Source of the DNA: Eubacteriales bacterium
GTDB taxonomy: Bacteria; Bacillota; Clostridia; Lachnospirales; Lachnospiraceae
NCBI GenBank assembly: GCA_030526265.1
Contig: JAUNDE010000016.1
Span: 1 to 38,978 of the forward strand
Direction: 5' to 3'
Length of the DNA: 38,978 nt
Positions within the stretch are counted from its first letter, which is position 1; every line of letters begins with the position of its first letter. Both the position numbers and the translations under genes were made by a program. The notes below the pieces were generated by a model that did no database searches, was not told the origin of the DNA, and saw only the letters and a program-made list of their open reading frames with translations. Shown one piece after another: positions 554 through 37,645 of the stretch.

Positions 554-2524
554 ATGAAAATCACATTAAAAGATGGATCTGTAAAAGAATATGCTGAAGC
601 AAAGTCCGTATTTGAGATCGCTTCTGATATCAGTGCAGGTCTTGCAAGAGCAGCTTGTGCAGGAGAAGTAAATGGTAAGGTTGTTGATTTAAGAACAATA
701 TTAAACGATGACTGTGAACTGAATATTATTACAGCAAACGATCCGGACGGATTACAGGTAATCCGTCATACAGCATCACATGTGCTTGCGCAGGCTGTAA
801 AGAGATTATATCCAAATGCAAAAATTGCAATTGGACCGGCGATCGATTCAGGTTTTTACTATGATTTCGAAGTGGATGAACCATTTTCGAGAGAAGATCT
901 TGATAAGCTTGAAGCTGAGATGAAGAAGATCATCAAAGAAGGACATGAACTGAAACGATTTACACTTCCAAGAGAAGAAGCAATCGCATTTATGAAAGAA
1001 AAAGAAGAGCCTTTCAAAGTAGAACTGATTGAAGATCTTCCGGATGGATCTGAGATCTCGTTCTATGATCAGGGTGAATTCGTAGATCTTTGTGCCGGAC
1101 CACATTTGATGACAACAAAAGGAATCAAAGCTTTCAAATTGATCTCTTCTTCTATGGCATACTGGAGAGGAGATTCAGAGAAAGCGCGCCTTCAGAGAAT
1201 TTATGGTACAGCATTTAATAAGAAGGAAGATTTGAATGCTCATCTCGAGAAACTGGAGGATGCAAAGCGCAGAGATCATAACAGACTTGGACGTGAGATG
1301 GAATTATTTACAACTGTTGATGTGATTGGACAGGGTCTTCCTCTATTCCCTCCAAAAGGAACAAAGATGATCATGAAACTTCAGAGATGGATCGAGGATC
1401 TTGAAGACAAAGAGTGGGGATATGTACGTACAAGAACTCCTCTGATGGCGAAATCAGATCTTTACAAGATTTCCGGACACTGGGATCACTATAAAGATGG
1501 AATGTTTGTACTGGGCGATGAAGAAGTAGATAAAGAAGTATTTGCGCTTCGTCCGATGACATGCCCATTCCAGTACTATGTATATAAAAACACACAGAAA
1601 TCATACCGCGATCTTCCATATCGAATGAGTGAGACATCGACATTGTTCCGTTCGGAAGATTCCGGAGAAATGCATGGTCTTACACGTGTACGTCAGTTTA
1701 CAATTACAGAAGGTCACAATGTCATCCGTCCGGATCAGGCCGAAGAAGAGCTGAAGAACTGTTTCGACCTTGCTTATCATATCCTTTCAACACTTGGATT
1801 GCAGGATGATGTGACATATCGTCTGTCAAAATGGGATCCTGAGAATAAGAAAAAATATCTTGGAGATGACGAATACTGGAATACAACTCAGGAAGCGTTA
1901 AGAGAAGTGCTTCGTGAGAAAAATGTACCATTCGTGGAAGCTGACGGTGAGGCGGCATTCTATGGACCAAAGATTGATATTCAGGCAAAGAATGTGTACG
2001 GCAAGGAAGATACAATGATCACGATCCAGCTTGACTGTGCAATCGCAGAGAACTTCGATATGTACTATATCGATCAGAACGGTGACAAGATCCGTCCTTA
2101 TATCATCCACAGAACTTCTATGGGATGCTATGAGCGTACACTCGCATGGCTGATCGAGAAATATGCAGGCAAGTTCCCGACATGGCTCTGTCCTGAACAG
2201 GTACGTGTACTTCCTATTTCAGAGAAATATGCTGATTATGCATATAAAGTACAGGATGAACTGAAGAAGCACGGTGTGGATGTAACAGTAGATAACCGTT
2301 CTGAGAAGATCGGATTTAAGATTCGTGAGGCAAGACTTGACAAGCTTCCATATATGCTTGTAGTCGGACAGCAGGAAGAAGCTGACGGAACTGTTTCTGT
2401 AAGAAGCAGATTTGAAGGAAATGAAGGAAGCAAGACAATTGCAGAATTTGTTGAAATGATCTGTGAGGAGATCCGTACAAAGGAAATTCGTGTAGAACTT
2501 CCGGAAGAAGAGAAAAGGAGATAA
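554..2524 (+). CDS. thrS: threonyl-tRNA synthetase
   Basis: This cytoplasmic class II synthetase charges tRNA-Thr. At 656 aa it is close to the usual 640. In order it shows an N-terminal TGS domain (about 1-62), an editing domain with H72-x3-H76 and C180/H184 (HTASH and CAGPH), the catalytic core (about 245-540) and a C-terminal anticodon-binding domain. RPMTCP places the expected zinc-ligand cysteine at residue 337. The start has AGAGAGAGG upstream and follows the T-box leader. The next gene begins 4 nt after the stop with no terminator between, so T-box readthrough probably extends into it. The glutamate/arginine-rich tail (about 640-656) is slightly longer than I would expect. Confidence 0.97.
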   Translation: MKITLKDGSVKEYAEAKSVFEIASDISAGLARAACAGEVNGKVVDLRTILNDDCELNIITANDPDGLQVIRHTASHVLAQAVKRLYPNAKIAIGPAIDSGFYYDFEVDEPFSREDLDKLEAEMKKIIKEGHELKRFTLPREEAIAFMKEKEEPFKVELIEDLPDGSEISFYDQGEFVDLCAGPHLMTTKGIKAFKLISSSMAYWRGDSEKARLQRIYGTAFNKKEDLNAHLEKLEDAKRRDHNRLGREMELFTTVDVIGQGLPLFPPKGTKMIMKLQRWIEDLEDKEWGYVRTRTPLMAKSDLYKISGHWDHYKDGMFVLGDEEVDKEVFALRPMTCPFQYYVYKNTQKSYRDLPYRMSETSTLFRSEDSGEMHGLTRVRQFTITEGHNVIRPDQAEEELKNCFDLAYHILSTLGLQDDVTYRLSKWDPENKKKYLGDDEYWNTTQEALREVLREKNVPFVEADGEAAFYGPKIDIQAKNVYGKEDTMITIQLDCAIAENFDMYYIDQNGDKIRPYIIHRTSMGCYERTLAWLIEKYAGKFPTWLCPEQVRVLPISEKYADYAYKVQDELKKHGVDVTVDNRSEKIGFKIREARLDKLPYMLVVGQQEEADGTVSVRSRFEGNEGSKTIAEFVEMICEEIRTKEIRVELPEEEKRR

Positions 2525-2528
2525 TCGG

Positions 2529-5500
2529 ATGTTAAAGACAGTTGTAAAAAAAGGAGATTATCACGATTCCGTTGTTTTGATGCTTTTGACAAATCATCTC
2601 GGCACGATCGATGGTGTGAAAAAAGTATCTGTCATGATGGCGACGCCGGCAAACAAAGATATTTTTAAACAGAGCGGCCTGGATACAGAGGAGTTAAACA
2701 ATGCAGCGGCAAATGATATGGTAGTTGTCGCAGATATCGATGATGATAACCTTTTGGATGTAATCATGAATGAGGCAGAAGATTTCTTCCGGAAACAGTC
2801 TGTATCAAGTGCTTCTGATAAGAAGGCAGAAAGCGTAAAATCATGGGAGAAAGCAATCGAGAAAATGCCGGATGCAAATCTGGCAGTCATTTCAATTCCT
2901 GGCGCTTATGCCGCACTTGAGGCAGAGCGTGCATTGGATGAAGGCATGAATGTGTTCATGTTCAGTGATAATGTTTCTATTGAAGACGAATTGCAATTAA
3001 AGGAAAAGGCTCACCAGAAAGGTCTCGCAGTCATGGGACCTGACTGTGGAACGGGCATCATTCAGGGCGTTCCGATCGCATTTACAAACAAAGTGAATAA
3101 AGGGTCGATTGGAATTATCGGTGCCTCAGGAACCGGTATTCAGGAGCTTACTACAATCATTGACCGATTAGGTGAAGGTGTCACAAATGCGATTGGTATC
3201 GGAGGCCGTGATCTCAATGCAGCCATCGGTGGAATTACGATGATGGATATGATCGATGCAATGGAAGATGACGATTCCGTGAAGGTTGTGATCGTAGTAT
3301 CAAAACCACCTGCAAAAGAAGTGCGTGATAGGATCGCTGCCAGACTTGCAGATTTCAGCAAACCGGTTGTTACATTATTTGTTGGTGAGAAACCGGAGTA
3401 TCATGAAGAGAATCTCTACCATACTTACACACTGGATGAGGCTGCAAGACTTGCAGTAAGTCTTGTGAGAGGTGAAGAGATCGCTGAAGCTTCGGCAGAT
3501 GTGGATGAAGCTGAATTCTACAGGGCAGAAGACAATAAGACGATCAAAGCTTATTATTCAGGCGGAACGCTGGCAAATGAAGCAGCAATGCTGATCAAAG
3601 ATGCGATGAACTGTGAGATCCCACCGGAGGATGTGGAAGGATATATGCTTCAGCTGGATGGTAATATCGTAGTGGATCTTGGAGATGATGCATATACGCA
3701 GGGTAAGCCGCATCCGATGATCGATCCGGCAAAGAGAATTGAATGTATGAAAGAAGCTGTCGATGATGAGTCCACAGGTGTTGTGCTTCTTGATATCATG
3801 CTTGGATATGGCTCTCATGAAGATATGGCGGGAGCACTCCTGCCAACGATCAAAGAACTTCAGGCGAAGGCAGAGAATGCCGGAAGAAAGGTATTCTTTA
3901 TTGCAACGGTCTGTGGAACGAAGAGTGATTATCAGGGATATGATGATGCTGTAAATAAATTAAAAGAAGCCGGAGTGATCGTATGCGAGAACAATAAGCT
4001 TGCATGTCGTACAGCAATCCGCGCGATCGGAAGAGACTTCGCTGAACCAGTGAAGGAGATCCGTCCAAAACATGCCGGGTCTGGAAAGAAGAACACTCCA
4101 TCGGATGCTCTCCGTACGCTGTTGTCTGAGAAACCAAAGATCATCAATGTAGGACTTCAGAGCTTTGCAGAAGTAGTCGAAGAGTTTGGATGTGAAGTCG
4201 TTCAGTTTGACTGGACACCACCGGCAGGCGGAAATGTAGAACTTATGAAAGTGCTCAATTTCCTCCGGAATTATGATGGATTTGACATGGATGAGGCGAA
4301 CCGTGCGGTTGCAGCCAAGATTGTTGCAAGTCAGCCTGTCATCATTGACAATGTCCGTGCAAAAGAAGTCATTCCGGTTATGAATGAAAATGGAGGAAAA
4401 GTGATCCTGCATGCAGGTCCTCCGATCGAGTATAAAGACATGCCGGATCCGATTCAGGGATCCTGCGTGGGAGCTGTATTATTTGAAGAGTGGGCAGATA
4501 ATGAGAAAGATGCAAGAGCACTTCTTGAATCCGGTGCGATTAAGTTCCTTCCGTGCCATCATGCAAACGCGGTTGGCCCAATGGGTGGAATCACATCTCC
4601 GAATATGGCAGTATTTGTTGTAAAGAATGAAACAGATGGAAATGAAGCTTACTGTACAATGAATGAAGGTATCGGTAAAGTTCTTCGTTTTGGTGCATAC
4701 TCAGAAGAAGTTGTAAACAGACTTCGCTGGATGAGAGATATTCTAGGTCCGACTCTCGGAAAAGCGATCCGTGAGCTTGGCGGAATCAGTGTGAATCCAC
4801 TGGTTGCAAAAGCAATTGCCATGGGTGATGAATTCCATCAGAGAAACATTGCTGCATCGCTTACATTTATGAAAGAAGTAGTGCCTGTGATTGCGAAGAT
4901 GGAAATGGATGAAGCTGACAAAGTCAGCGTTCTGAAGTTCCTCGCTGATACAGATCAGTTCTTCCTGAATATTATGATGGCTACAGGAAAGGCAATCATG
5001 GATGGTGCACGTACACTTACAGAAGGTACGATCGTAACAGCGATGTGCAGAAACGGTGTGGAGTTTGGTATCCGTATTGCCGGTATGGGTGATGAGTGGT
5101 TTACAGGTCCTGTCTGTATGCCGCAGGGATTGTTCTTCACCGGATATGATGAAGAGGATGCCTGTCCGGACATGGGTGACAGTGCGATTACGGAGACGGT
5201 TGGTGTCGGCGGAATGGCAATGATCGCAGCACCTGCAGTTACAAGATTCCTTGGCGCAGGCGGATATGAAGATGCGCTTCGCATCAGCAATGAGATGGAA
5301 GAAATCACGATCGACCACAATCCGAACTATATTATTCCGACATGGAATTTCAAAGGTGCCTGTCTTGGTATCGATGCGAGACTGGTTGTTGAAAAACAGA
5401 TTACACCGGTGATTAATACGGGTATCGCACATAAGATCGCAGGATATGGACAGGTTGGTGCAGGTACAGCTCATCCTCCGGTTGAATGTTTCGAAAAAGC

Positions 5501-5540
5501 AATTGTAGCTTATGCGAAGAAGTTGGGATATAAATCATAG
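2529..5540 (+). CDS. fused FdrA/YlbE (AllF-AllG) protein, putative oxamate transcarbamylase
   Basis: This 1003-aa protein joins two families that are separate genes in E. coli. Residues 1 to about 540 match FdrA (AllF), with a succinyl-CoA-synthetase-like core: GPDCGTG at 170-176 and IGASGTGIQE at 197-206. Residues from about 570 to the end match YlbE (DUF1116, AllG), with HAGPP at 628-632, PCHHANAVGPMGG at 675-687 and GDEFHQRN at 766-773. In E. coli AllF, AllG and AllH are reported to form oxamate transcarbamylase, converting oxalurate plus phosphate to oxamate plus carbamoyl phosphate. No AllH (DUF2877) or carbamate kinase is visible here. The gene starts 4 nt after thrS, with its GGAG overlapping the thrS end. 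Domain identity is strong; the reaction is inferred from E. coli and from the pucG and M20 neighbours. YahF/YahG-type paralogues show other substrates are possible. Confidence 0.85.
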   Translation: MLKTVVKKGDYHDSVVLMLLTNHLGTIDGVKKVSVMMATPANKDIFKQSGLDTEELNNAAANDMVVVADIDDDNLLDVIMNEAEDFFRKQSVSSASDKKAESVKSWEKAIEKMPDANLAVISIPGAYAALEAERALDEGMNVFMFSDNVSIEDELQLKEKAHQKGLAVMGPDCGTGIIQGVPIAFTNKVNKGSIGIIGASGTGIQELTTIIDRLGEGVTNAIGIGGRDLNAAIGGITMMDMIDAMEDDDSVKVVIVVSKPPAKEVRDRIAARLADFSKPVVTLFVGEKPEYHEENLYHTYTLDEAARLAVSLVRGEEIAEASADVDEAEFYRAEDNKTIKAYYSGGTLANEAAMLIKDAMNCEIPPEDVEGYMLQLDGNIVVDLGDDAYTQGKPHPMIDPAKRIECMKEAVDDESTGVVLLDIMLGYGSHEDMAGALLPTIKELQAKAENAGRKVFFIATVCGTKSDYQGYDDAVNKLKEAGVIVCENNKLACRTAIRAIGRDFAEPVKEIRPKHAGSGKKNTPSDALRTLLSEKPKIINVGLQSFAEVVEEFGCEVVQFDWTPPAGGNVELMKVLNFLRNYDGFDMDEANRAVAAKIVASQPVIIDNVRAKEVIPVMNENGGKVILHAGPPIEYKDMPDPIQGSCVGAVLFEEWADNEKDARALLESGAIKFLPCHHANAVGPMGGITSPNMAVFVVKNETDGNEAYCTMNEGIGKVLRFGAYSEEVVNRLRWMRDILGPTLGKAIRELGGISVNPLVAKAIAMGDEFHQRNIAASLTFMKEVVPVIAKMEMDEADKVSVLKFLADTDQFFLNIMMATGKAIMDGARTLTEGTIVTAMCRNGVEFGIRIAGMGDEWFTGPVCMPQGLFFTGYDEEDACPDMGDSAITETVGVGGMAMIAAPAVTRFLGAGGYEDALRISNEMEEITIDHNPNYIIPTWNFKGACLGIDARLVVEKQITPVINTGIAHKIAGYGQVGAGTAHPPVECFEKAIVAYAKKLGYKS

Positions 5541-5556
5541 GAGAGGAATGTAGAGG

Positions 5557-7170
5557 ATGATGATACCGGTTACTCCACTTACATGGGGTGCGGCGATTTT
5601 GCCGATTATTGTTTTACTGATATTAATGATCAGGTTCCAATGGGGCGCGACCGAGGCCGCCCCGGTGGGACTTCTGATCACTGTTTTTACCGGCTTTGTT
5701 TTATATAAGGCAAATATCAGACTGATCGCCTCGGAAAGTGCAAAGGGAATCTGGAACGCACTGATCATTTTGCTGATTGTCTGGACAGCAATTCTGATGT
5801 ATCAGGTGAGTGATGAGGCGAAGGCATTTCTGGTCATTCGTAACGGAATGAGAAAATTATTGCCGAATGAGCTTCTCTTAGTACTTGCAATGGGATGGAT
5901 CTTTGAGAGCTTTCTGCAGGGAATCACGGGGTTTGGTGTCCCGGTTGCGGTTGGTGCGCCTCTTTTGATCGGGATCGGAGTAAAGCCGCTCTGGGCTGTG
6001 ATCATTCCTTTGTTTGGACAGGCCTGGGGCAATACATTTGGTACATTAGGCGCAGCCTGGGATTCTCTTGCAATGAGTGCAGGACTTGCCGCAGGAAGCA
6101 GGGAGTACCTTGTAACAGCGCTTTGGACAGCGGCATTTATCTGGTTCTGGAACGTGATCGCAGGTTTGGCGATGTGCTGGTTTTATGGAAAAGCGAAGGC
6201 ATTGAAAAAAGGATTTACAGCGGTTCTGATCTTATCACTGATCCAGGGCGGAGGAGAACTGTTGCTGACGCAGGTCAATACAACTATTTCCTGTTTTGTC
6301 CCTGCCTGTGTGTCTCTGATTGTCATTTTATTCCTTGGACGCCTGAATTGCTATAAAGAGGAATGGTGTATCGAAGAGAGTTCGATCATGAATCGTGCAT
6401 TCACCTCTTCCTCTTTTGACGATGCGCCGGAGGACATGACATTAGTTCAGGCATTCGTGCCGTATTTCCTTTTGTCTGCACTGACACTCGTTGTGCTGGT
6501 CGTTAAGCCGATCAATTTATTTTTGGGGCAGGTGAAATTCGGTCTTGCATTCCCGGAGACTTCTACGGGATATGGATTTGTGAATGCTGCTTCGGATTGC
6601 TTTTCACCACTTGCTCCGTTTACGCATGCAAGTATGTTCCTTTTCTTATCCGCGATCCTTGGACTTTTGTACTATAAGCGCCATGGATGGATCGGAGAAG
6701 GAGGCGTGAAACGAGTGTTTGTAAAATCGGTTTCCATGACGATGCCATCCGGCATCTCTGTCATTGGCCTTGTCATCATGTCCAAGATCATGGACGGAAC
6801 CGGTCAGACAGTTGTTCTTGCGAATGGAATTGCAAATGCACTTGGAAAGGTATATGTGATCCTGGCGCCGTTTGTTGGCCTTCTCGGAACATTTATGACA
6901 GGAAGCAACATGAGTTCCAACATTCTGTTCGGAGGCTTCCAGATGACGACAGCAAAGCTTCTGGGAGTGAACTCAGCACTCGTTCTGGGAGCTCAATCCT
7001 CGGGCGGGGCGATCGGAAGCGCGATCAGTCCGAGCAAGATTATTCTCGGTACAACGACTGCGAATATTCTTGGAAGCGAAGGGGAGGTCATGAAGAAGAT
7101 CATGGCGATCTGCGTGCTTGCTACGGTCGTGATCGGCGCTTTTGCATTTGTGGCAGTTTCATTCATATAA
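5557..7170 (+). CDS. LctP-family (lactate permease-like) transporter
   Basis: This 537-aa hydrophobic protein has roughly 12-14 predicted membrane segments. Family signatures are ITGFGVPVAVGAPLLIG in the first third, GQAWGNTFGTLGAAWDSLA just after, and TGSNMSSNILFGGFQ with AQSSGGAIGSAISPSKII near the C terminus; these are the conserved loops of L-lactate permeases. Its AGAGG site lies about 16 nt after the preceding stop, so it is in the same operon. Family members move small 2-hydroxy or 2-oxo monocarboxylates. Given the neighbours, I infer that it imports a ureido acid or exports oxamate, which resembles pyruvate and lactate. A plain lactate or glycolate transporter remains possible. Confidence 0.88.
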   Translation: MMIPVTPLTWGAAILPIIVLLILMIRFQWGATEAAPVGLLITVFTGFVLYKANIRLIASESAKGIWNALIILLIVWTAILMYQVSDEAKAFLVIRNGMRKLLPNELLLVLAMGWIFESFLQGITGFGVPVAVGAPLLIGIGVKPLWAVIIPLFGQAWGNTFGTLGAAWDSLAMSAGLAAGSREYLVTALWTAAFIWFWNVIAGLAMCWFYGKAKALKKGFTAVLILSLIQGGGELLLTQVNTTISCFVPACVSLIVILFLGRLNCYKEEWCIEESSIMNRAFTSSSFDDAPEDMTLVQAFVPYFLLSALTLVVLVVKPINLFLGQVKFGLAFPETSTGYGFVNAASDCFSPLAPFTHASMFLFLSAILGLLYYKRHGWIGEGGVKRVFVKSVSMTMPSGISVIGLVIMSKIMDGTGQTVVLANGIANALGKVYVILAPFVGLLGTFMTGSNMSSNILFGGFQMTTAKLLGVNSALVLGAQSSGGAIGSAISPSKIILGTTTANILGSEGEVMKKIMAICVLATVVIGAFAFVAVSFI

Positions 7171-7231
7171 AATTGTCAAAGGACAGATGCAGACATTCTG
7201 AACTTGATGAATGTAGGAGAGGATATACAGA

Positions 7232-7423
7232 ATGGGGAAAAATAGTTTTTTTAAAACAAAAGCGGGTGGACTTACAATCGCATTTCTTGTCATCATGGTT
7301 GCTTTTATAATCATTATGGCAGGGCTTGGTACGGGAAATGATATGCTTTGTACAGTCGGATTTGTTCTTATTGTATTTGCAATGTTATATTCCCCTGTGA
7401 AAGTATATATTTTGCGAAAGTAA
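7232..7423 (+). CDS. small two-helix membrane protein, unknown function
   Basis: This 63-aa protein has a basic start (MGKNSFFKTK), two hydrophobic helices (about residues 11-32 and 38-57) and a basic end (VYILRK). A strong TAGGAGAGG site lies about 10 nt before the ATG. It lies between the transporter and the amidohydrolase on the same strand, so it is probably co-transcribed. I do not recognise the family. An accessory role for the transporter is possible but only suggested by position. Confidence 0.65.
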   Translation: MGKNSFFKTKAGGLTIAFLVIMVAFIIIMAGLGTGNDMLCTVGFVLIVFAMLYSPVKVYILRK

Positions 7424-7492
7424 AGCTCTGATTCCTGAAAATCAGAAGCAGACTCAAAACAAAGTTTGAAAGAATTAAGGAGCAGATCAACA

Positions 7493-8734
7493 ATGATCAT
7501 TGAAGAAATAACAGGAAGAATAGCAAGAGATCTGGAATATCTGAAGCGCTTTACAGCCACTCCGGGAAGTGGATGTACACGTCTTCCTTTTACGAAAGAA
7601 GCAAGACAGGCAGTGGATTTCCTGTCAGGCCTTATGCGGGAAGTCGGGCTTGAAGTGAGAGAAGATGCAGCCGGAAATGTCTTTGGTGTCCTGAAAGGAG
7701 AAGATCCGACACTGCCATGTGTTATGATGGGATCTCATTATGATTCCGTGATCCATGGCGGTGATTATGACGGTATTGCAGGTGTCGTCTGTGCGATAGA
7801 AGTAGCAAGACAGCTGAAAGAGAGCGGAGCTGAATTAAAGAAAAATTTTGTTGTCGCAGGATTCTGCGATGAAGAGGGTATGCGGTTTGGAACCGGGTAT
7901 TTCGGATCAGGCGCAATGCTCGGACATCGGGATGTGGAATACTGTAAGAAATTTGCAGATGCAGACGGGATCACAATCTATGATGCAATGAAAGCGTATG
8001 GTCTTGATCCTGAGAAGATCGGGGAGGCCGCCTGGGATGAAGGATCGATCGGATTTTTCCTGGAAGCACACATCGAACAGGGGCCGGTTCTTGATGCGGA
8101 AAAGGTTCAGGTCGGTCTTGTAGATTGTATCGTTGGTATTCAGAGATATATGATCACGGTGCACGGAAGAGCGGATCATGCAGGAACAACTCCGATGGAT
8201 ATGCGGATCGATGCGGTGGAGGCTGCTTCGAAAGTGATCGCCAAAATCCCGGACTGGGCAAGAGAAAAAGCGGATGGAACGGTGGCAACAACCGGATTTG
8301 TCCGTGTGACTCCGGGCGGAATGAATATCGTAGCTGAAAAATGTGAATTCACAGTCGACATCCGTTCGAAGAACAATGACAATATCAATGATATTGCGAG
8401 AAGGATCAGGGCTCAGTTAGACCGTGAGATGAAATATAACGGCGGAAGCTATGAGATGGATACAAAGCTTGTGATCGAGCCGGTATATCTCTGTCAGGAT
8501 ATGTTATCAGTGATGGAAGAGAGCTGTAAAGCACATCATTACAGCTACAGATACCTTCCAAGCGGTGCCGGTCATGATTCGCTGGAAATCGGACAGAGCA
8601 TCCAGGCAGCAATGCTTTTCGTTCCGAGCAAGGATGGCAGAAGCCATTGCCCGGATGAATTTACAAAGTACAGTGATTTTTCAAGAGCAACAGTTATTAT
8701 GACTGAACTTGTGGAAAAATTACTCGGCAAATAG
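7493..8734 (+). CDS. M20 amidohydrolase, probable allantoate amidohydrolase (AllC/PucF type)
   Basis: This 413-aa cytoplasmic metalloenzyme belongs to the branch that hydrolyses N-carbamoyl compounds. Likely metal ligands and conserved residues are H82 and D84 (GSHYDS), D93 (GGDYDG), E127/E128 (DEEG), H193 (HIEQGP), H361 (GAGHDS) and H385 (RSHCPDEF). ADHAGTTPM marks the dimerisation lid. I chose the ATG at 7493 because TTAAGGAG sits 10 nt upstream; the TTG at 7466 has no such site. With pucG and the AllF-AllG fusion nearby, conversion of allantoate to ureidoglycine, CO2 and ammonia is the best guess. N-carbamoyl-amino-acid hydrolase or ureidoglycolate hydrolase activity cannot be excluded by eye. 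Confidence 0.88.
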   Translation: MIIEEITGRIARDLEYLKRFTATPGSGCTRLPFTKEARQAVDFLSGLMREVGLEVREDAAGNVFGVLKGEDPTLPCVMMGSHYDSVIHGGDYDGIAGVVCAIEVARQLKESGAELKKNFVVAGFCDEEGMRFGTGYFGSGAMLGHRDVEYCKKFADADGITIYDAMKAYGLDPEKIGEAAWDEGSIGFFLEAHIEQGPVLDAEKVQVGLVDCIVGIQRYMITVHGRADHAGTTPMDMRIDAVEAASKVIAKIPDWAREKADGTVATTGFVRVTPGGMNIVAEKCEFTVDIRSKNNDNINDIARRIRAQLDREMKYNGGSYEMDTKLVIEPVYLCQDMLSVMEESCKAHHYSYRYLPSGAGHDSLEIGQSIQAAMLFVPSKDGRSHCPDEFTKYSDFSRATVIMTELVEKLLGK

Positions 8735-8775
8735 AATAAAAAGAACGAAGTCGCGGCGACTTCGTTCTTTTTATT
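8735..8775. terminator. bidirectional terminator between convergent genes
   Basis: A perfect 19-bp inverted repeat (8735-8753 and 8757-8775) surrounds a CGG loop. It has an A-rich outer 5' flank and a T-rich outer 3' flank, so it can stop transcription from both sides. It closes the thrS-ureide run and the convergent pucG gene. Confidence 0.92.
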
Positions 8776-8842
8776 GTCATTCTATCTAAAGAATCTTCAG
8801 GTGGCTATTGTAATAGTCTGTATATTCTTAAGAATCCGCTGA

Positions 8843-10066
8843 TTAAGCGTTTTTGTATACTTCAAGAGCTGCTGCAACTGCATCTCCTGCAGGAACTTTC
8901 ACTCCATTTTGAATGAGAACAGCCTCTAATGCACCGAGTGTGAAGAGGATATTTCTCTTCTGGCTTGAGTATCCCATGTTACCGATGCGGATGATCTTTC
9001 CGTCAAGTGGTCCGAAGGATGTGGCAACTTCGATACCGAAGTCATTTAACATCTGTCCGCGGAGTGTTGGTCCGTCAATTCCTTCCGGAATGCAGATCGC
9101 TGTTACAACCGGCATTTTGTGTTTGAGATCACCGAAGATCTCAAGCCCCATTGCCTGAAGTCCTGCGCAGAGTGCTTTGTCATTCAGGATGTGACGTGCA
9201 AAACGTGCTTCCAGGCCTTCTGTGAGGATGCAGCGAAGTGCTTCATGTACAGCATACTGCATGCTTGTAGCTTCTGTATGATGGTTCAGACGACGTGGGC
9301 TCCAGTAATCTTCAAGCTGTCCAAGGTCAAGGTAGTTGCTTGGAATCGGTGGAAGTGTTCCATCGATGTCCGCTGTTGTCCGGATACCTTTTTCCACTTT
9401 CTTTCTTGCATGTACGATCTTCTCGATGTTTTCATTGTAAGTAATGAGTGCAGATCCTGATGGAGCAGAGATACATTTCTGTGTACCTGCGATACATGCA
9501 TCCAGTCCCCATTCATCAACCGGGATATCTACGCCGCCAAGTGTGGCAACACAGTCAACGATCAACAGGGCATCATATTTCTTGCAGAGCTTTCCAAGTT
9601 CATCAAGCGGCTGCATCATAGAAGTAGAAGTCTCTCCGTGAATACATGCAACTGCTTTGTATCCTCCTTTTTTCAGTTCTGCTTCAATTTCTTCCATGTC
9701 GAATACGGTTCCCCATTCTTTTTCAAGAAGTGTGATCTCGGCACCGCATCTCTCCAGAATTTCATTTAACAGATATCCAAATCTTCCGAATGCAGGGATC
9801 AGGACTTTATCTCCAGGGCAGATAGCTCCTGTGAGAACTGTCTCAAGACCGCCTCTTGATGTTGTATCTACAAGGTATGTCTGTTTGTTCTTTGTCTGGA
9901 AGAGCTGACGGCTCATCTCCATTGTCTCTGTCATAAGAGCAGTGAATTCCGGGTCAAACTGTCCTAATATATGTGCAGACATTGCACGAAGTACACGTGG
10001 GTCCGCTTCAACCGGACCAGGTGTCATAAGTGTACGTGGTGATGGATTGATTTCGCTGTAAATCAT
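8843..10066 (-). CDS. pucG: (S)-ureidoglycine-glyoxylate aminotransferase
   Basis: This class V PLP aminotransferase (407 aa from the chosen start) transfers the amino group of ureidoglycine to glyoxylate, giving oxalurate and glycine. It follows the Bacillus PucG sequence closely as I recall it: RTLMTPGPVEADPRVLRAM at the start, GQFDPEFT, IPAFGRFGYLL, EWGTVFD, HGETST, and QLEDYWSPRRLNHHTEAT. The Schiff-base lysine is K197 in GTQKC. Two ATGs compete: the site AAAGGGAG is 3 nt from the ATG at 10072 but 9 nt from the one at 10066, so I prefer the latter. It converges with the M20 enzyme that would supply its substrate. Alanine-glyoxylate aminotransferase is the main alternative. Confidence 0.88.
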   Translation of the reverse strand: MIYSEINPSPRTLMTPGPVEADPRVLRAMSAHILGQFDPEFTALMTETMEMSRQLFQTKNKQTYLVDTTSRGGLETVLTGAICPGDKVLIPAFGRFGYLLNEILERCGAEITLLEKEWGTVFDMEEIEAELKKGGYKAVACIHGETSTSMMQPLDELGKLCKKYDALLIVDCVATLGGVDIPVDEWGLDACIAGTQKCISAPSGSALITYNENIEKIVHARKKVEKGIRTTADIDGTLPPIPSNYLDLGQLEDYWSPRRLNHHTEATSMQYAVHEALRCILTEGLEARFARHILNDKALCAGLQAMGLEIFGDLKHKMPVVTAICIPEGIDGPTLRGQMLNDFGIEVATSFGPLDGKIIRIGNMGYSSQKRNILFTLGALEAVLIQNGVKVPAGDAVAAALEVYKNA

Positions 10067-10110
10067 GATCATTTTCTCCCTTTGTAGTATAAAATAATTT
10101 GAACAAAAAT

Positions 10111-10139
10111 ATTATAAACGCCTGAACTGTAAAATTCAA
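10111..10139 (-). promoter_or_regulatory. promoter of pucG
   Basis: On the minus strand TTGAAT (10139-10134) and TATAAT (10116-10111) are separated by exactly 17 bp. Transcription would start near 10104, about 38 nt before the preferred pucG start. Confidence 0.75.
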
Positions 10140-10150
10140 TAGTTCAGGCG
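10119..10150. repeat. perfect inverted repeat flanking the pucG -35 box
   Basis: CGCCTGAACT (10119-10128) and AGTTCAGGCG (10141-10150) are perfect 10-bp complements 12 bp apart, centres 22 bp apart, about two helical turns. One arm lies in the promoter spacer, the other just upstream of -35. In RNA it could be a weak terminator for the chrA genes, although the following T tract is short and interrupted. In DNA it looks like an operator. Confidence 0.7.
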
Positions 10151-10174
10151 AATGCAATTTTTGATAATCCGTAT

Positions 10175-10732
10175 TTATAGTTTGAACAGGATGCCAAGGA
10201 CCGCTCCGATGACGATCCAGACTAACGGATGGAGCTTTCGGCATCGTTTGTGCTGCATTACCGCAAACAGTGCGAGACAGAGGATAACGCTTAAATAATC
10301 AATGCTTTTCAGATGATGTGCATCTGTGATAGAAAAGGATATCTTGATCAATTCCCACACAGCATAAGCGATCAAAGCGGCGACGGTTGGGCGGATGCCG
10401 TAAAACGCACCCTGAACACGTTTGTCTTCGCTGAAATCTGCAAGAAATTTTGCAATGATCACGATGATAAAAAGAGCCGGAGTGACAAGGCCAAGTGTCG
10501 CGATGACAGCTCCTAAGACCCCGGCGGCATTATATCCGGCATAAGTGGCCATATTGACTCCGACAGGCCCCGGTGTACTCTGACTGATCGCAACCATATT
10601 TGTGAGTTCTCTGACCGTGTACCAGTCATAGGAATTTGCAAGATCCATCAGGAACGGAAGAGTAGCCATTCCGCCTCCGACAGCGAAAAGACCGATTTTG
10701 AAAAATTCAATAAAGAGCCGAAAGAAGATCAT
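10175..10732 (-). CDS. short ChrA-family (CHR domain) transporter, second subunit
   Basis: This 185-aa single CHR-domain membrane protein has about five or six helices. Signatures are FKIGLFAVGGGMATLPFL near the N terminus and STPGPVGVNMATYAGYN about 40 residues later. The start at 10732 follows GGGAGG by 10 nt; the longer open frame upstream only overlaps the preceding chrA. It overlaps that gene by ATGA, indicating translational coupling. Short CHR proteins usually come as pairs, like YwrA/YwrB of Bacillus, that act together. Chromate export is the name-giving function, but the natural substrate here is unknown. Confidence 0.87.
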   Translation of the reverse strand: MIFFRLFIEFFKIGLFAVGGGMATLPFLMDLANSYDWYTVRELTNMVAISQSTPGPVGVNMATYAGYNAAGVLGAVIATLGLVTPALFIIVIIAKFLADFSEDKRVQGAFYGIRPTVAALIAYAVWELIKISFSITDAHHLKSIDYLSVILCLALFAVMQHKRCRKLHPLVWIVIGAVLGILFKL

Positions 10733-11283
10733 GATTTCACGCCCTCCCTTCTTTTCGCTAAAATACCGATACAGGCAGAGGCAATTACGATGGCTGCCAA
10801 TGGGACCGGCGTAAAGCTTGCGATAAGAAAGCCTGCAAGAAAAAGAAATATTCCGAGCCTGTCCTTGATTCCCTTCTTCGCCATTGTGACCACTGTCTGA
10901 AGCATCATTGCACAGACAGCAACGCGGATACCTGCAAATGCGTGCAGAACGACTGGAAGGTCGATAAATCTTCGCAGTACAGAGGCAATGAGGCAAATGA
11001 TCACGATGGAAGGTGAAATCATGCCCAATGTGGAAATGACACCCCCGATAAATCCTTTTTTCTTATATCCGACAAAGGTAGCAGTGTTCACTGCTATGAT
11101 ACCTGGTGTGCATTGTCCGATTGCATACATATCGAGGATCTCTTCCTCTGTTATCCAGTTTTTCGAGTCTACCAGTTCCCGTTTCAGCATTGGCAGCATG
11201 GCGAGACCACCGCCAAAAGTCAGAATTCCGATCTTGAAGAAACTGGTGTACAGTTCCGGTAAGATATTATGATTTTTTTCCAT
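10729..11283 (-). CDS. short ChrA-family (CHR domain) transporter, first subunit
   Basis: This 184-aa membrane protein has one CHR domain: FKIGILTFGGGLAMLPML near the start and QCTPGIIAVNTATFVGYKKKG after it. The chosen start MEKNHNIL comes one nucleotide after the stop of the DUF4364 gene, suggesting coupling by re-initiation. An in-frame ATG at 11313 lies only 3 nt after a strong AGGAGG inside the upstream gene and would add ten residues, so it is an alternative. Its partner gene follows with a 4-nt overlap. Confidence 0.86.
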   Translation of the reverse strand: MEKNHNILPELYTSFFKIGILTFGGGLAMLPMLKRELVDSKNWITEEEILDMYAIGQCTPGIIAVNTATFVGYKKKGFIGGVISTLGMISPSIVIICLIASVLRRFIDLPVVLHAFAGIRVAVCAMMLQTVVTMAKKGIKDRLGIFLFLAGFLIASFTPVPLAAIVIASACIGILAKRREGVKS

Positions 11284-11284
11284 T

Positions 11285-11797
11285 TTATAACAGATGCGAC
11301 ATAATAAGCGCATAAACCTCCTGATTTTTCTTGCGCCAGTTCTCTGCAATCGACTGCGCTTCTGCTTCAGATGGCGCGGTAATGGTGAGATCAATCAAAG
11401 GCAGAGTATTCTCGATTACCTGACAGTGAACAGAATATTCTCCGTTTGTATTTCGATAGTAGTCTGATTTGACAGAGATCTCATTTTTGAGTTCATATTT
11501 TTTTTCATTTAAATACTCATCAATATCCTTTTGAATTGCATGGGATATATTATTTCTGAAATATTGAATCGTAGAAGAGCCGTCTTCCGTCAGATGATAA
11601 ATCGTGCGGTTGTGCGTGGATTCTTCCCTGATGAGACCGGCATCCTGAAGCTCAGAGAGAGCCTGGTGCATCTTGAAAAATGTCGTGTATTCTTTGTCCA
11701 GAATAAATTCTGATATCTGAGATGTAGACATCGGAAAATCGACTTTGTCAAGCATGTACAATATAATTAATTTGTAGAGTGTAAATGGTTCTGCCAT
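11285..11797 (-). CDS. DUF4364 winged-helix protein
   Basis: This 170-aa protein begins with a winged-helix-like region of the kind seen in PadR/MarR regulators (about residues 1-75: TLYKLIILYMLDKVDFPMS, then LSELQDAGLIREE and a wing ending in YHLTEDG). A mixed C-terminal domain follows. AAAGGAG sits 9 nt before the ATG at 11797; earlier in-frame starts lie inside the preceding gene without such a site. The gene overlaps the radical SAM gene by about 31 nt and is 1 nt from chrA. DUF4364 is common in clostridia and its targets are not established to my knowledge. Regulation of its own cluster is a guess. Confidence 0.75.
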   Translation of the reverse strand: MAEPFTLYKLIILYMLDKVDFPMSTSQISEFILDKEYTTFFKMHQALSELQDAGLIREESTHNRTIYHLTEDGSSTIQYFRNNISHAIQKDIDEYLNEKKYELKNEISVKSDYYRNTNGEYSVHCQVIENTLPLIDLTITAPSEAEAQSIAENWRKKNQEVYALIMSHLL

Positions 11798-12732
11798 GTG
11801 CAGATCTCCTTTCCCTGCCATATGTCCTGTTGTTTGAAATATGCCTGCATTCTGTTTAATACCATTCTTTTATTGCCTGTCCATTTGGGCTCGATCAGAA
11901 TGGATTTCGGACCGTCGCCGGTCAGACGGTGTATCACAATGTCCGGCCGCAGATTACAGATGCATTTGCCAAGTAATTCAAAATATTCTTCCATCGTAAA
12001 AATGTGGAAGGGATGGACTGCGTAGTATTCAGAGAGATCTGTATTCTCCAGTATGTGTAATAACTGGAGCTTTACTCCCTGAATATCCTGTGTGTTGAGA
12101 TAGCGGATCGTCTGAAGCATTTTATCGGTATCTTCGCCCGGCAGTCCCAGGATTGTGTGGACGATTACTTCAATATCTATTTCCCGAAGCTTTTTGACAG
12201 CTTCTTCAAATACCGGAAGATCATAACCCCTCCGTATGAAGGAGGCTGTTTCCGGGTGAATCGTCTGAAGACCGAGTTCGACCCAGACAGGAATGACTTT
12301 ACGGATTTCCTTTAACAGGGAGAGAACCTCGAAACTGAGACAGTCAGGACGAGTCGCAATTGAGAGAATTTCTACACCGGGGCAAGCGATTGCTTCCCTA
12401 TATATCCGCTCCAGATAGGAAACAGGGGCGTACGTGTTCGTGTAGGCCTGGAAATAGGCGATAAAATGTTCAGAGTGCTGTTTTTTTGCGATCTGAAGCT
12501 TTCCCTCGTCTAACTGTTTTGAGATGGAGTGCATTTTGTTTCCCGCAAAATCTCCGGATCCTCCTTTGCTGCAGAAAATGCAGCCATTTGTCCCAAGCGT
12601 CCCGTCTCTGTTTGGACAGGTCATTCCTCCGTTCAGAGAAATCTTATAAAGTTTTACTCCGAACCTTTTTTTTAATTCATAATCCAGAGAGTGGTAACGC
12701 TTTTCTCCCCAGTACATTGTATTATAGCTCAT
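11767..12732 (-). CDS. TIGR01212-family radical SAM protein (YtqA/YhcC-like)
   Basis: This 321-aa cytoplasmic protein has the widened cysteine motif of this family: C39 in GGMTCPNRDG, then C51 and C54 in NGCIFC, rather than C-x3-C-x2-C. These would bind the 4Fe-4S cluster that cleaves S-adenosylmethionine. VELGLQTIHPETASFIRRGY and ILGLPGED are conserved downstream radical SAM elements. The reaction is unknown to me; a tRNA modification role is sometimes suggested for relatives. It is the first gene of the minus-strand cluster, with AGGAA before the start, divergent from malic enzyme. Confidence 0.88.
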   Translation of the reverse strand: MSYNTMYWGEKRYHSLDYELKKRFGVKLYKISLNGGMTCPNRDGTLGTNGCIFCSKGGSGDFAGNKMHSISKQLDEGKLQIAKKQHSEHFIAYFQAYTNTYAPVSYLERIYREAIACPGVEILSIATRPDCLSFEVLSLLKEIRKVIPVWVELGLQTIHPETASFIRRGYDLPVFEEAVKKLREIDIEVIVHTILGLPGEDTDKMLQTIRYLNTQDIQGVKLQLLHILENTDLSEYYAVHPFHIFTMEEYFELLGKCICNLRPDIVIHRLTGDGPKSILIEPKWTGNKRMVLNRMQAYFKQQDIWQGKEICTWQNHLHSTN

Positions 12733-12843
12733 TTTATATTCCTGCTTCCATAATCTCTCAACATAATATCATTCTGACAAAGCCAAATCAATATTAAGTA
12801 AGGTTTTTATCAGGAGTACGGCATCTTTAAAATGAAAATATCT

Positions 12844-12872
12844 TTGAATATAGAAAGAATTAGTGATAGAAT
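12844..12872 (+). promoter_or_regulatory. promoter of the malic enzyme gene
   Basis: TTGAAT (12844-12849) and TAGAAT (12867-12872) are 17 bp apart, placing the start of transcription about 37 nt before the ATG at 12916. This also argues against the longer reading frame beginning at 12832. Confidence 0.7.
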
Positions 12873-12915
12873 AAATGAGTATTACTGGATTTGTATGTTT
12901 ATAAGGAGGAAATAT

Positions 12916-14100
12916 ATGGATTACGCAAAAGAGTCTTTGAAATTACACGATGAGTGGAAAGGTAAAATTGAGGTGATTGCAACTGTGCCGGTTGAGACAA
13001 AGGATGATCTGTCTCTGGCATACACACCGGGTGTTGCACAGCCTTGTCTTGAAATACAGAAAAATGTGGAACGCAGCTATGACCTGACAAGAAGACATAA
13101 CATGTGTCTTGTTGTTACAGACGGATCTGCTGTGCTTGGTCTCGGAGATATCGGACCGGAAGCAGGTATGCCTGTGATGGAGGGAAAATGTGTGCTGTTC
13201 AAAGCATTTGGAGATGTTGATGCATTCCCGCTCTGCATTAAGAGCAAAGATGTCGATGAGATCGTGAATACGATCTATTTGATCTCCGGATCTTTTGCGG
13301 GTGTCAATCTCGAGGATATCTCAGCACCAAGATGTTTTGAGATCGAGAGAAAACTGAAAGAGAAATGTGACATTCCGATCTTCCATGATGATCAGCACGG
13401 AACAGCAATCATTACGTTGGCGGGTCTTACAAATGCGCTCAAGGTTGTTGGAAAGAAAAAAGATGAGATCAAAGTTGTAATGAATGGAGCGGGAGCTGCT
13501 GCAATTTCCATTGCAAAACTTCTTTTGAAAGCCGGTGTGAAGGATATTACTCTTTGTGACAGAAATGGTGCCATTTATGAAGGACGAGAAGTCGGTATGA
13601 ATCCTGTCAAAGAAGAAATGGCTAAGATTACAAATCTTGAGAAAAAGCCTGGAACACTTGCTGATATGCTTGTCGGAGCAGATGTATTTATCGGAGTATC
13701 CGCACCTGGAGTTGTCACTACAGATATGGTTCGTACAATGGCAAAAGATGCGATCGTATTTGCATGTGCCAACCCTACTCCTGAGATCTTCCCTGATGAA
13801 GCAAAAGAAGGAGGAGCAAAAGTAGTGGCAACAGGCCGGAGTGATTTCCCAAATCAGATCAATAACGTGCTTGCCTTCCCTGGAATTTTCAGAGGAGCAT
13901 TCGATGTGCGCGCAAAAGATATCAATGATGAGATGAAGCTGGCAGCAGCAAAAGCACTGGCAGATTTCATTCCGGAGGAGGAACTCTCCGCTGATAATAT
14001 CATCCCGCCGGCATTCGCAGAGGGTATTGGAAAAGCAGTTGCAAAGGCAGTTGCAGAAGCTGCGATTAAGACAGGTGTTGCCCGGATCACAAATGAATAA
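12916..14100 (+). CDS. NAD(P)-dependent malic enzyme
   Basis: This 394-aa short bacterial malic enzyme oxidatively decarboxylates malate to pyruvate in the cytoplasm. Visible elements are SLAYTPGVAQPC with the catalytic tyrosine (Y36), VTDGSAVLGLGDIGPEAG, MEGKCVLFKAF with the catalytic lysine (K91), the metal-binding FHDDQHGTA (D158/D159), and a nucleotide-binding GAGAAA at 191-196. TAAGGAGG directly before the ATG at 12916, and the promoter at 12844-12872, fix the start. The choice between NAD and NADP cannot be read with confidence. It stands alone between divergent promoters. Confidence 0.93.
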   Translation: MDYAKESLKLHDEWKGKIEVIATVPVETKDDLSLAYTPGVAQPCLEIQKNVERSYDLTRRHNMCLVVTDGSAVLGLGDIGPEAGMPVMEGKCVLFKAFGDVDAFPLCIKSKDVDEIVNTIYLISGSFAGVNLEDISAPRCFEIERKLKEKCDIPIFHDDQHGTAIITLAGLTNALKVVGKKKDEIKVVMNGAGAAAISIAKLLLKAGVKDITLCDRNGAIYEGREVGMNPVKEEMAKITNLEKKPGTLADMLVGADVFIGVSAPGVVTTDMVRTMAKDAIVFACANPTPEIFPDEAKEGGAKVVATGRSDFPNQINNVLAFPGIFRGAFDVRAKDINDEMKLAAAKALADFIPEEELSADNIIPPAFAEGIGKAVAKAVAEAAIKTGVARITNE

Positions 14101-14112
14101 ACGGAAAGTACT

Positions 14113-14140
14113 TTGCAGAATGAAACTCTTGTAGTATAAT
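14113..14140 (+). promoter_or_regulatory. promoter of rho
   Basis: TTGCAG (14113-14118) and a perfect TATAAT (14135-14140) are 16 bp apart, just after the malic enzyme stop. Transcription would begin around 14147, about 73 nt before the rho start. Confidence 0.6.
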
Positions 14141-14219
14141 ATACAGATGTTTCGAAAAAGTCATTTCAGACTGATTATCCCACAAAAGCAGAGTGAATAA
14201 GAAAGGATTTCTATATTTT

Positions 14220-15542
14220 ATGAGAGCAAAATATGAATCACTTCCTTTGGCAACGCTTCGAGATCTGGCAAAGGCACGAGATATTTCCGGTATCTCAGGT
14301 ATGAAAAAGAGTGAACTGATTGAGCGTATGCTGGAAGAAGACATAAAAGATAAAGAGCGTTCGGCAAACACAGGAGATAAAGAGAAGCAGGATTTGAAAG
14401 AAATAGAGAAACTGGACAGCGGCGAGATCGCGAATGGTATTCTGGAAGTAATGCCGGATGGATATGGCTTTATCCGGTGTGAAAATTTTATGCCAGGTGA
14501 AAATGATGTTTATGTTGCTCCGTCGCAGATTCGAAAGTTTAATCTGAAAACCGGAGATATTCTGGAAGGAAATATGAGGATCAAGACACAGCAGGAAAAA
14601 TTCAGTGCACTTCTTTATCTTACAAAGGTTAACGGAATTCATCCGGCTGTTGCGAGCAGAAGACCAAACTTTGAAGATCTTACACCGATTTTCCCAAATG
14701 AAAGACTTTCCCTTGAAAATGGCAAGACAAGCACTGCTATGAGAATTGTGGATCTGTTGTCACCGATCGGAAAAGGACAGCGTGGTATGATCGTGTCACC
14801 TCCAAAGGCTGGAAAGACGACACTCCTGAAGCAGGTGGCATTGTCTGTCAGGAGAAATAATCCGGAAGTCCATCTTATTATTTTGCTGATCGATGAGAGA
14901 CCGGAAGAAGTCACAGATATTAAGGAGGCAATCGAAGGAAAGAATGTCGAGGTCATCTATTCAACATTTGATGAATTGCCTGAGCATCACAAACGTGTGT
15001 CAGAAATGGTAATCGGACGTGCAAAGAGACTTGTGGAGCATGGAAAAGATGTAATGATCCTGCTTGACAGTATAACGCGACTGGCAAGAGCTTACAATCT
15101 GACTGTTTCTCCATCCGGAAGAACACTCTCCGGCGGTTTGGATCCTGCAGCACTTCATATGCCGAAGAGATTTTTTGGAGCAGCGAGAAATATGAGAGAG
15201 GGCGGAAGCCTTACAATTCTTGCAACAGCACTTGTTGATACCGGAAGCAAGATGGATGATGTTGTATATGAAGAGTTCAAAGGAACAGGAAATATGGAAC
15301 TTGTTCTGGATCGTAAGCTCTCAGAAAAGAGAATGTTCCCGGCGATTGATATTCAAAAATCAGGAACGAGAAGAGAAGACCTGCTTTTATCGGAAGAAGA
15401 GTTAGAGGCTGTATCATCAATGAGACGTGCTCTGAATGGCATGCGAACGGATGAAGCAGTTGAAAATATATTGAATATGTTCTCCAGAACAAAGAACAAT
15501 GAAGAACTCATTCAAATGGTAAAAAAGACAAAATTTATCTAG
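14220..15542 (+). CDS. rho: transcription termination factor Rho
   Basis: This hexameric RNA helicase terminates untranslated transcripts. It is 440 aa from the chosen ATG. It has an N-terminal helical Rho_N domain with LRDLAKAR, a short charged linker, an S1-like RNA-binding domain ([13 protein letters not shown] and [13 protein letters not shown]), then the RecA-like ATPase. That domain shows Walker A KAGKTT (about 196-201), Walker [11 protein letters not shown], and the R-loop region [15 protein letters not shown]. The GTG at 14193 is possible but lacks a site; AAAGG lies 13 nt before the ATG at 14220. It has its own promoter, and its stop codon overlaps the rpmE promoter. Confidence 0.95.
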
Positions 15543-15568
15543 ACAAAGTTCATTTTATTTGATATACT
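15540..15568 (+). promoter_or_regulatory. promoter of rpmE, overlapping the rho stop codon
   Basis: TAGACA (15540-15545) and TATACT (15563-15568) are 17 bp apart. The first three bases of the -35 box are the rho stop codon. The 5' leader to rpmE would be about 65 nt and contains a small TGCAC/GTGCA hairpin near 15600. Confidence 0.6.
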
Positions 15569-15640
15569 TAAACAGCTGTTTAATAAACGAAATTGATTTA
15601 TGCACATAGTGCAGCGAAAATAAAGAAGAGGTGAAACGAA

Positions 15641-15841
15641 ATGAGAGAAGGAATCCATCCAAAATATTATCAGGCAACTGTAACTTGTAACTGTGGAAAT
15701 ACTTTTGTAACAGGATCTACAAATGAAGATATTCACGTGGAAATCTGTTCAAAATGTCATCCATTCTATACAGGACAGCAGAAAGCTACACAGGCTCGTG
15801 GACGTGTTGATAAATTCAACAAGAAATACGGTCTTAAATAA
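15641..15841 (+). CDS. rpmE: 50S ribosomal protein L31, zinc-binding type
   Basis: This 66-aa large-subunit protein keeps the four zinc-binding cysteines, C16, C18, C36 and C39 (CNCGN and [10 protein letters not shown]), so it is the zinc-containing C+ paralogue rather than the zinc-free form. It ends in the usual basic segment [19 protein letters not shown] precedes the ATG. A terminator follows, making it a single-gene unit between rho and the yqhQ-prmC-prfA block. Confidence 0.97.
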
Positions 15842-15854
15842 TCAGGTATATGTT

Positions 15855-15884
15855 GGGTTGAGATCAAAAGTCTCAACCCTTTTT
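15855..15884 (+). terminator. intrinsic terminator after rpmE
   Basis: GGGTTGAGA (15855-15863) and TCTCAACCC (15871-15879) are perfect complements around TCAAAAG, followed by TTTTT. Confidence 0.93.
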
Positions 15885-15952
15885 AAATTATTAAAAATAA
15901 ATGTTCTGTGATCAGTACAGAACGGAGAACTCATATCAGGAGTGAATAGAAA

Positions 15953-16876: not shown

Positions 16877-16900
16877 TCTGATACATAGGAGTATTTGAAT

Positions 16901-17767: not shown

Positions 17768-17827
17768 ATGAAATGATAGATTGAATAAACGGAAATAATG
17801 GATAAGATATAACAGGGAGGAAAAAGA

Positions 17828-37465: not shown

Positions 37466-37509
37466 TATATGCAGAGATAAAAACGCAATGCACATGAGAA
37501 TATGTGTTA

Positions 37510-37645
37510 GAGCTGGTTGGTAGCCCAGCCGTCCTGTATTATGCAGGGTAAGTAACCTGCCCCTCCGGGTTGTCCATTCTTTGCTCATCAATTACTTGAC
37601 GAATACTGCGACAATGAGCGCAGCAGTGCAAGACAGGAGGGAATA
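37510..37645 (+). promoter_or_regulatory. structured leader of yjdF, probable yjdF-class (azaaromatic-sensing) riboswitch
   Basis: The leader forms GCTGG/CCAGC (37512-37516 with 37525-37529), GCAGG/CCTGC (37543-37547 with 37556-37560), and GCTCAT/ATGAGC (37583-37588 with 37614-37619). TCCTGT at 37532-37537 can pair with ACAGGA at 37633-37638, covering the AGGAGG ribosome site. A competing CTGCG/CGCAG stem (37606-37610 with 37619-37623) shares a base with the previous one. This suits translational control. The class is assigned mainly because yjdF motif RNAs typically precede this gene family; I could not check the consensus. Confidence 0.6.

Follow-up and report, generated by a model that had tools for sequence, protein, structure and literature searches.

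The window analysed here is a stretch of 38,978 nucleotides (bases 1-38978 of the 42034-base contig JAUNDE010000016.1) from a 2.23 Mb assembly of a Eubacteriales bacterium, a gut-type anaerobe related to the Lachnospiraceae, and it carries genes for an M20 amidohydrolase, a PucG-type aminotransferase and a fusion of AllF and AllG, two subunits of oxamic transcarbamylase. We suggest that these genes probably belong to a route from allantoin to oxamate in which a transamination by PucG replaces the AllE and AllD steps, which we regard as the best explanation of the sequence data. The proposal builds on what the assembly encodes, on where PucG and AllG fall in phylogenetic trees, and on AllD not being found and AllE not reaching its cut-off in the assembly. 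For the substrates, the oxo acid used, the reaction sequence and the permease we infer the following scheme. Allantoin would be taken up and opened to allantoate by an allantoinase encoded on another contig, and the M20 enzyme of the window would convert allantoate to ureidoglycine. PucG would then turn ureidoglycine and an oxo acid such as glyoxylate into oxalurate and an amino acid, after which the AllF-AllG fusion together with AllH would convert oxalurate and phosphate to oxamate and carbamoyl phosphate. Carbamate kinase would use carbamoyl phosphate and ADP to make ATP, and oxamate would leave the cell, perhaps via an LctP-type permease. Since PucG would stand in for AllE and the NAD-dependent AllD, no NADH would be made at this step and no ammonia released. 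A first-pass annotation, made from the letters of the same DNA, had already placed the three enzymes here and read them as an allantoate-to-oxamate route; all three are open reading frames, and the gene content, the PucG and AllG placements and the recurrence in other genomes support that reading as a prediction. The annotation had also called the route compact, which is partly right: the three genes do lie within 7.5 kb, but this segment is not the complete pathway, and AllH, the allantoinase, a permease and the carbamate kinase are encoded on other contigs.

The aminotransferase is most similar among solved proteins to B. subtilis PucG (3isl, 522.4 bits), followed by HpxJ (3nnk, 450.6 bits), and the best alanine-glyoxylate enzyme scored 255.6 bits. 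Gln37 and Asn264 (PucG numbering), which we take to be diagnostic for ureidoglycine-glyoxylate aminotransferase (UGXT), are present in all 81 PucG proteins compared (the window protein and those of 80 loci), and both alanine-glyoxylate enzymes compared have His and Tyr at these positions. In a midpoint-rooted tree of 35 of the 81 proteins and four solved chains, the UGXT group including PucG and HpxJ holds 37 of the 39 rows at 100/99 and contains the window protein, and 1vjo and 4cbs fall outside it on long branches. The window protein and 15 clostridial proteins form one group (100/100) that adjoins B. subtilis PucG (87/83). An identity as an alanine-glyoxylate enzyme, which the first-pass annotation had named as a reason to give up its reading, is ruled out by this placement and by both diagnostic residues. 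These results support a UGXT of the PucG/HpxJ type, for which activity on ureidoglycine is predicted.

The AllF-AllG fusion is a single intact reading frame that comprises an FdrA-type part (NF004760, 704.6 bits) and an AllG part (PF06545, 317.7 bits). We built an AllG tree of 44 rows, which remained of 61 after contained duplicates were removed; matches covering 75% or less of the query, such as L158, were left out. The AllG part falls into an 18-row clade with E. coli AllG (100/100) and E. coli YahG lies elsewhere, ruling out a fusion of the YahFG kind. The order search covered 295 genomes, of which 13, the window genome included, hold AllG of any kind; L025, which is a fragment with stops from one of the 13, was kept off the tree. 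Two of the 12 order-search loci on the tree (Sellimonas, G264) join the E. coli AllG clade. Other clostridial genomes hold AllF/AllG paralogues (L028, L029, L031-L038) that lie outside that clade, several of them nearest to YahF/YahG. In 11 of the 14 AllG-bearing clostridial PucG genomes the open frame that holds AllG is 1002-1019 amino acids long, like that of the window, and the frames in the other 17 AllG-bearing genomes have 419-646 amino acids. E. coli AllFGH is reported as an oxamic transcarbamylase in passages of PMC11326118, which predict from sodium dodecyl sulfate polyacrylamide gel electrophoresis that AllF and AllG occur in equal numbers, although the western blot did not show this. 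A natural AllF-AllG fusion agrees with the predicted equal numbers. The third subunit, AllH, is encoded on contig C32 (PF11392, 81.6 bits against a cut-off of 25), so that AllF, AllG and AllH are all present in the genome and a missing AllH is ruled out.

The gene set is not unique to the window genome, since it recurs in clostridia and proteobacteria. A PucG scan of genome contigs, from which 80 of 157 confirmed relatives were kept, gave 15 clostridial loci at 79-88% identity, after which identity dropped to 56% and below. AllG lies within 10 kb on either side of PucG in 16 of the 80 loci (six clostridial and ten proteobacterial), counting one with a partial AllG at the locus edge (L041). This grouping is beyond chance; by our estimate, a given gene would be expected in 20 kb of a 4-Mb genome in about 0.5% of cases. 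A whole-genome search made for 50 of the 80 loci detected AllG in 31 genomes, among them 14 of the 15 clostridial ones. The first-pass annotation had asked whether related genomes keep the genes together, and they do so in Anaerostipes and other clostridia. A single contig of Anaerostipes sp. MSJ-23 carries PucG, AllH, two AllB/NCS1 pairs, AllFG, kinase, LctP and M20 at 2406-18480, and no AllE or AllD match was found in this contig set. Homologues of every step, with AllD and AllE not above cut-off, thus lie within about 16 kb in this genome, and within about 14 kb in an uncultured Clostridia genome. The allantoinase-permease pairs of Anaerostipes sp. MSJ-23 stand in tandem (L152:4889-10436), and both allantoinases are above the TIGR03178 cut-off.

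Outside the clostridia, six Granulosicoccaceae loci show the order M20-kinase-PucG-AllG-AllF with an AllG of another subclade, followed in most by a weak AllH match. Enterobacterial PucG loci mostly have the M20 gene alone beside PucG, and K. grimontii has both HpxJ and an AllG. Among the 17 non-clostridial AllG-bearing genomes, AllD is above cut-off in one and AllE in six, that one included, which leaves 11 with neither. Since weaker AllD-family matches occur in all 17, an unrecognised AllD may be present in them. Three enterobacteria among the 11 carry a YahG-type AllG and therefore should not be counted as having the same route.

Several observations weigh against the transamination-based route, and they are given here together with the alternatives on which they bear. 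Within the window genome AllD has no match at E up to 0.001, and AllE reaches 20.5 bits against a cut-off of 200, so that PucG is the only step from ureidoglycine to oxalurate recognised by sequence in this assembly. Completeness of the assembly is 93.27%, with 2.77% contamination, so that the organism could have pathway genes that the assembly lacks. Furthermore, AllD is above cut-off in 11 of the 15 clostridial PucG genomes and AllE in the same 11. PucG may consequently be an accessory in these relatives, and the PucG-only route is, as far as the sequences tell, a property of the window genome and a few others rather than of the whole group. The four genomes with neither gene above cut-off are Anaerostipes sp. 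MSJ-23, a Ruminococcus metagenome-assembled genome (MAG), in which AllG is missing as well, an uncultured Clostridia genome and a Bacillota MAG. The organism might thus use the ordinary E. coli route of AllE, AllD and AllFGH, with the first two merely missing from the assembly and PucG as a side activity that disposes of glyoxylate. The 11 relatives with both genes, which adjoin AllF where mapped, and the incomplete assembly speak for this alternative. However, an open reading frame that we take to be thrS ends four bases upstream of the fusion gene, in the place of AllE and AllD in relatives, and the isolate genome of Anaerostipes sp. MSJ-23 and two more AllG-bearing clostridial genomes lack both above cut-off. 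We therefore consider the E. coli route unlikely here. The stop codon of thrS shares bases with the ribosome-binding region that precedes the fusion gene, and thrS was seen in no other stretch searched in the cluster mapping. The order allE-allD-allFG-kinase-LctP-M20 is found in Sellimonas, Merdimonas and Cricetibacter, and in Lachnotalea as far as LctP, while Faecalicatena contorta differs; the window cluster corresponds to this operon minus allE, allD and the kinase.

The M20 protein belongs to the hydantoinase/carbamoylase family, and translation more likely starts at an in-frame ATG at 7493 than at 7466. It passes the subfamily-level allantoate amidohydrolase model NF006771 (439.2 bits, cut-off 399) and also the general hydantoinase/carbamoylase model (376.9, cut-off 204). 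The motifs that presumably supply the metal ligands of E. coli AllC are kept in the window protein, and L-carbamoylases share the same motifs. Among solved proteins an L-carbamoylase matches it best (266.5 bits, compared with 207.9 for AllC), and in a 28-row tree window-type M20 proteins form a clade of their own that is sister to AllC at 75/11 only. The first-pass assignment to an AllC/PucF type agrees with the subfamily model, whereas its nearness to AllC is unsupported, and we dropped the view that window-type M20 proteins are proven orthologues of AllC. Because of this separate clade and the unsupported nearness, we propose allantoate as the substrate of the first step from the genomic context and not from the phylogeny.

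This leads to the alternative that the M20 protein is an N-carbamoyl amino acid hydrolase and that the cluster handles some other carbamoyl compound, in which case the genes would not form a single allantoate route. Besides the tree and the best solved match, it is favoured by Hespellia and Lachnotalea, which lack the window-type M20 and carry one grouping with that L-carbamoylase, and by AllF/AllG paralogues in other contexts, such as YahF/YahG. However, the AllG part falls in the E. coli AllG clade, the allantoinase gene lies beside AllH, M20 proteins of the window type turn up again in clusters that have AllB, AllD, AllE and AllFG, and the window M20 is the sole TIGR01879 family member above cut-off in its genome. 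Based on these observations, we judge this alternative to be quite improbable. The allantoate assignment is further favoured by the presence of the window-type M20 at 46-80% identity in 11 of the 15 clostridial PucG genomes, and by Faecalicatena contorta, which lacks it and whose cluster instead contains an AllC homologue of 55% identity. Against the assignment stands, apart from Hespellia and Lachnotalea, the fourth genome without it (L047), which has just a partial 34% match. Four genomes (G300, G304, G305 and G307) have a second, weaker M20 with 30-35% identity beside the window-type one, which also argues against a simple assignment, and the Merdimonas copy has one stop within its range.

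The genes on other contigs were those for which the first-pass annotation had advised a search (allantoinase, DUF2877, which is AllH, and carbamate kinase), and all of them were found, although some with reservations. AllH on C32 is divergent from the allantoinase gene, which is followed by an NCS1-family permease gene. AllH is just 27% identical to E. coli AllH, with equally large variation among relatives; 18 columns are invariant over 10 AllH rows including its own and the E. coli protein (the Sellimonas row was left out), and AllH has no solved relative by sequence at E up to 1. The allantoinase passes TIGR03178 (383.7 bits, cut-off 357.9) and scores 384.8 against 631 with NF004839. The permease is under the cut-offs of the NCS1 model and of both allantoin-permease models. 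The carbamate kinase gene is on C107, outside the cluster and among housekeeping genes, and its product stays below the arcC cut-off (323.5 bits, cut-off 358), yet it passes NF009007 (315.9 against 266). Ten clostridial cluster kinases share 47-50% identity with it, and an eleventh, whose translated frame has 738 amino acids, shares 39%. At L039:15769-17753, and likewise at L040:15771-17783, two carbamate kinase genes stand side by side within one allantoin cluster, with 75-76% mutual identity. In Sellimonas caecigallum (L155:7299-8465 and L155:10245-11135), an allantoinase copy matches in two overlapping pieces and there is a stop inside the AllH match range, which suggests decay or sequencing error.

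The LctP-family permease of the window matches PF02652 with 232.9 bits and TIGR00795 with 226.5 bits, the latter under its cut-off of 341. The first-pass annotation had missed both this permease and the small membrane-protein gene that follows it. Seven mapped relatives have an LctP-type gene of 68-79% identity after the kinase, and the uncultured Clostridia cluster has a 36% homologue. Between LctP and M20, the window and six of the seven relatives examined have an open reading frame for a membrane protein of 63-75 amino acids, which is not in the Lachnotalea stretch, where a window-type M20 does not follow. No Pfam family was above cut-off when three of these proteins were searched. Third codon positions hold the largest share of the differences among the frames (798, with 426 and 327 at the other two, summed over 21 non-independent pairs), so the small frame is in all likelihood a genuine gene. 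Lactate and pyruvate, of which oxamate is an analogue, are typical of what LctP proteins carry. On account of this resemblance, it is a fair guess by analogy that the permease exports oxamate with the small protein as its partner; alternatively, it may take up glyoxylate or glycolate for PucG. In the two E. coli papers checked, neither "export" nor "excret" appears in the main text. We regard as possible, though doubtful, a wider proposal in which PucG fully replaces AllE and AllD here and in a few others, with no NADH, one ATP and the amino group passed to an amino acid, in which LctP and its 63-75 amino acid partner are a dedicated oxamate exporter, and in which proteobacteria, with an AllG of another subclade, evolved the coupling of UGXT to a transcarbamylase independently.

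It should also be considered that the cluster might be a decaying remnant of a pathway that no longer runs, from which AllE, AllD and the cluster kinase have already been lost. The operon of relatives has AllE, AllD and one or two kinases, and none of them is at the window locus. Nevertheless, the remaining genes are open at full length, AllH of this genome keeps the 18 invariant columns, pucG has a promoter-like site, and the small membrane protein is under protein-level constraint across clusters. A remnant is accordingly highly improbable, and the transamination-based route is the reading that we retain.

The positions of the features are given in Table 1. The genes from thrS to M20 follow one another on the forward strand in the order thrS, AllF-AllG fusion, permease, small membrane protein and M20, and pucG lies beyond a terminator-like repeat on the reverse strand with its own promoter-like site.

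Table 1. Features of the proposed allantoin-to-oxamate cluster and its flank in the window.
Feature	Position	Strand	Basis or remark
thrS, threonyl-tRNA synthetase (presumed)	554..2524	+	open reading frame; neighbour outside the pathway
AllF-AllG fusion, two oxamic transcarbamylase subunits, 1003 aa	2529..5540	+	NF004760, PF06545
LctP-family permease	5557..7170	+	PF02652, TIGR00795
Small membrane protein, 63 aa, no known family	7232..7423	+	open reading frame conserved in relatives
M20 amidohydrolase, proposed allantoate amidohydrolase, 422 aa	7466..8734	+	NF006771
Inverted repeat and T run, terminator-like, between convergent genes	8738..8772		sequence
PucG-type ureidoglycine aminotransferase (predicted), 409 aa	8843..10072	-	3isl, 3nnk, residues, tree
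Sigma-70-like promoter site of pucG, TTGAAT-17-TATAAT	10108..10139	-	by eye; consensus match only

Two adjacent chromate-transporter-type genes (10175-11394, reverse strand) lie upstream of pucG on the same strand. A search of the window with Rfam at gathering thresholds gave no match inside the cluster, and the only match was a distant azaaromatic (yjdF) riboswitch at 37467-37593 on the forward strand (74.3 bits, gathering score 45).

The individual enzymes and parts of the route were known before, and the route proposed here is, as a prediction from sequence, a well-supported variant of known ureide pathways. According to a passage of a 2016 review (PMC5270733), the oxamate of Streptococcus allantoicus may come via oxalurate, formed either as in B. 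subtilis with ureidoglycine aminotransferase or as in E. coli. A 2023 paper (PMC10163214) states that PucG links ureidoglycine and amino acid recycling and was characterised in B. subtilis and not in E. coli, and passages of a 2025 paper (PMC12625717) describe allFGHK in nitrifiers without the upstream genes. Among the matches listed from non-subscription literature, by title, abstract or passages, no description was found of PucG feeding AllFGH in a clostridial cluster. The first-pass annotation knew each step separately in Bacillus or E. coli; their combination may be new in its clustered clostridial form, while the link itself was mentioned as a possibility in the 2016 review. If the route operates as proposed, oxalurate made by PucG would gain a defined and energy-yielding fate in gut-type anaerobes, suggesting that animal allantoin could be a source of both nitrogen and ATP. 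Genomes without AllE and AllD would offer a background in which the PucG step can be studied, and the oxamate route would gain a candidate transporter and a small membrane protein that has no name so far.

The oxamate branch of the E. coli ALL pathway (AllB, AllC, AllE, AllD, AllFGH and AllK) shares the AllB, AllFGH and carbamate kinase steps and the AllG clade with the proposed route. It differs in that the window genome has no AllD and no AllE above cut-off and would convert ureidoglycine to oxalurate by transamination, in that AllF and AllG are fused, and in that the window M20 is not shown to be an AllC orthologue. The Puc pathway of B. subtilis provides the closest solved aminotransferase, PucG, at 522 bits; we know of no oxamate transcarbamylase step in this pathway, and the B. 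subtilis control genome gave no AllG or AllH match. The HPX pathway of Klebsiella (HpxK, HpxJ, HpxXY and HpxW, where we take HpxK as the name of the M20 enzyme and HpxXY as the oxalurate step) resembles the window in having an M20 enzyme beside HpxJ, a UGXT. Passages of PMC12625717 give hpxY as an oxalurate amidohydrolase, so that no carbamoyl phosphate would arise there, and K. pneumoniae is without allFGH according to passages of PMC11326118. Finally, the ureidoglycine carbamoyltransferase route of Rubrobacter, as described in passages of PMC4016543, has an enzyme that acts on allantoate and resembles aspartate transcarbamylase, unlike the enzymes proposed here; it is like the present route in that carbamoyl phosphate is obtained from a ureide, with a kinase gene adjacent.

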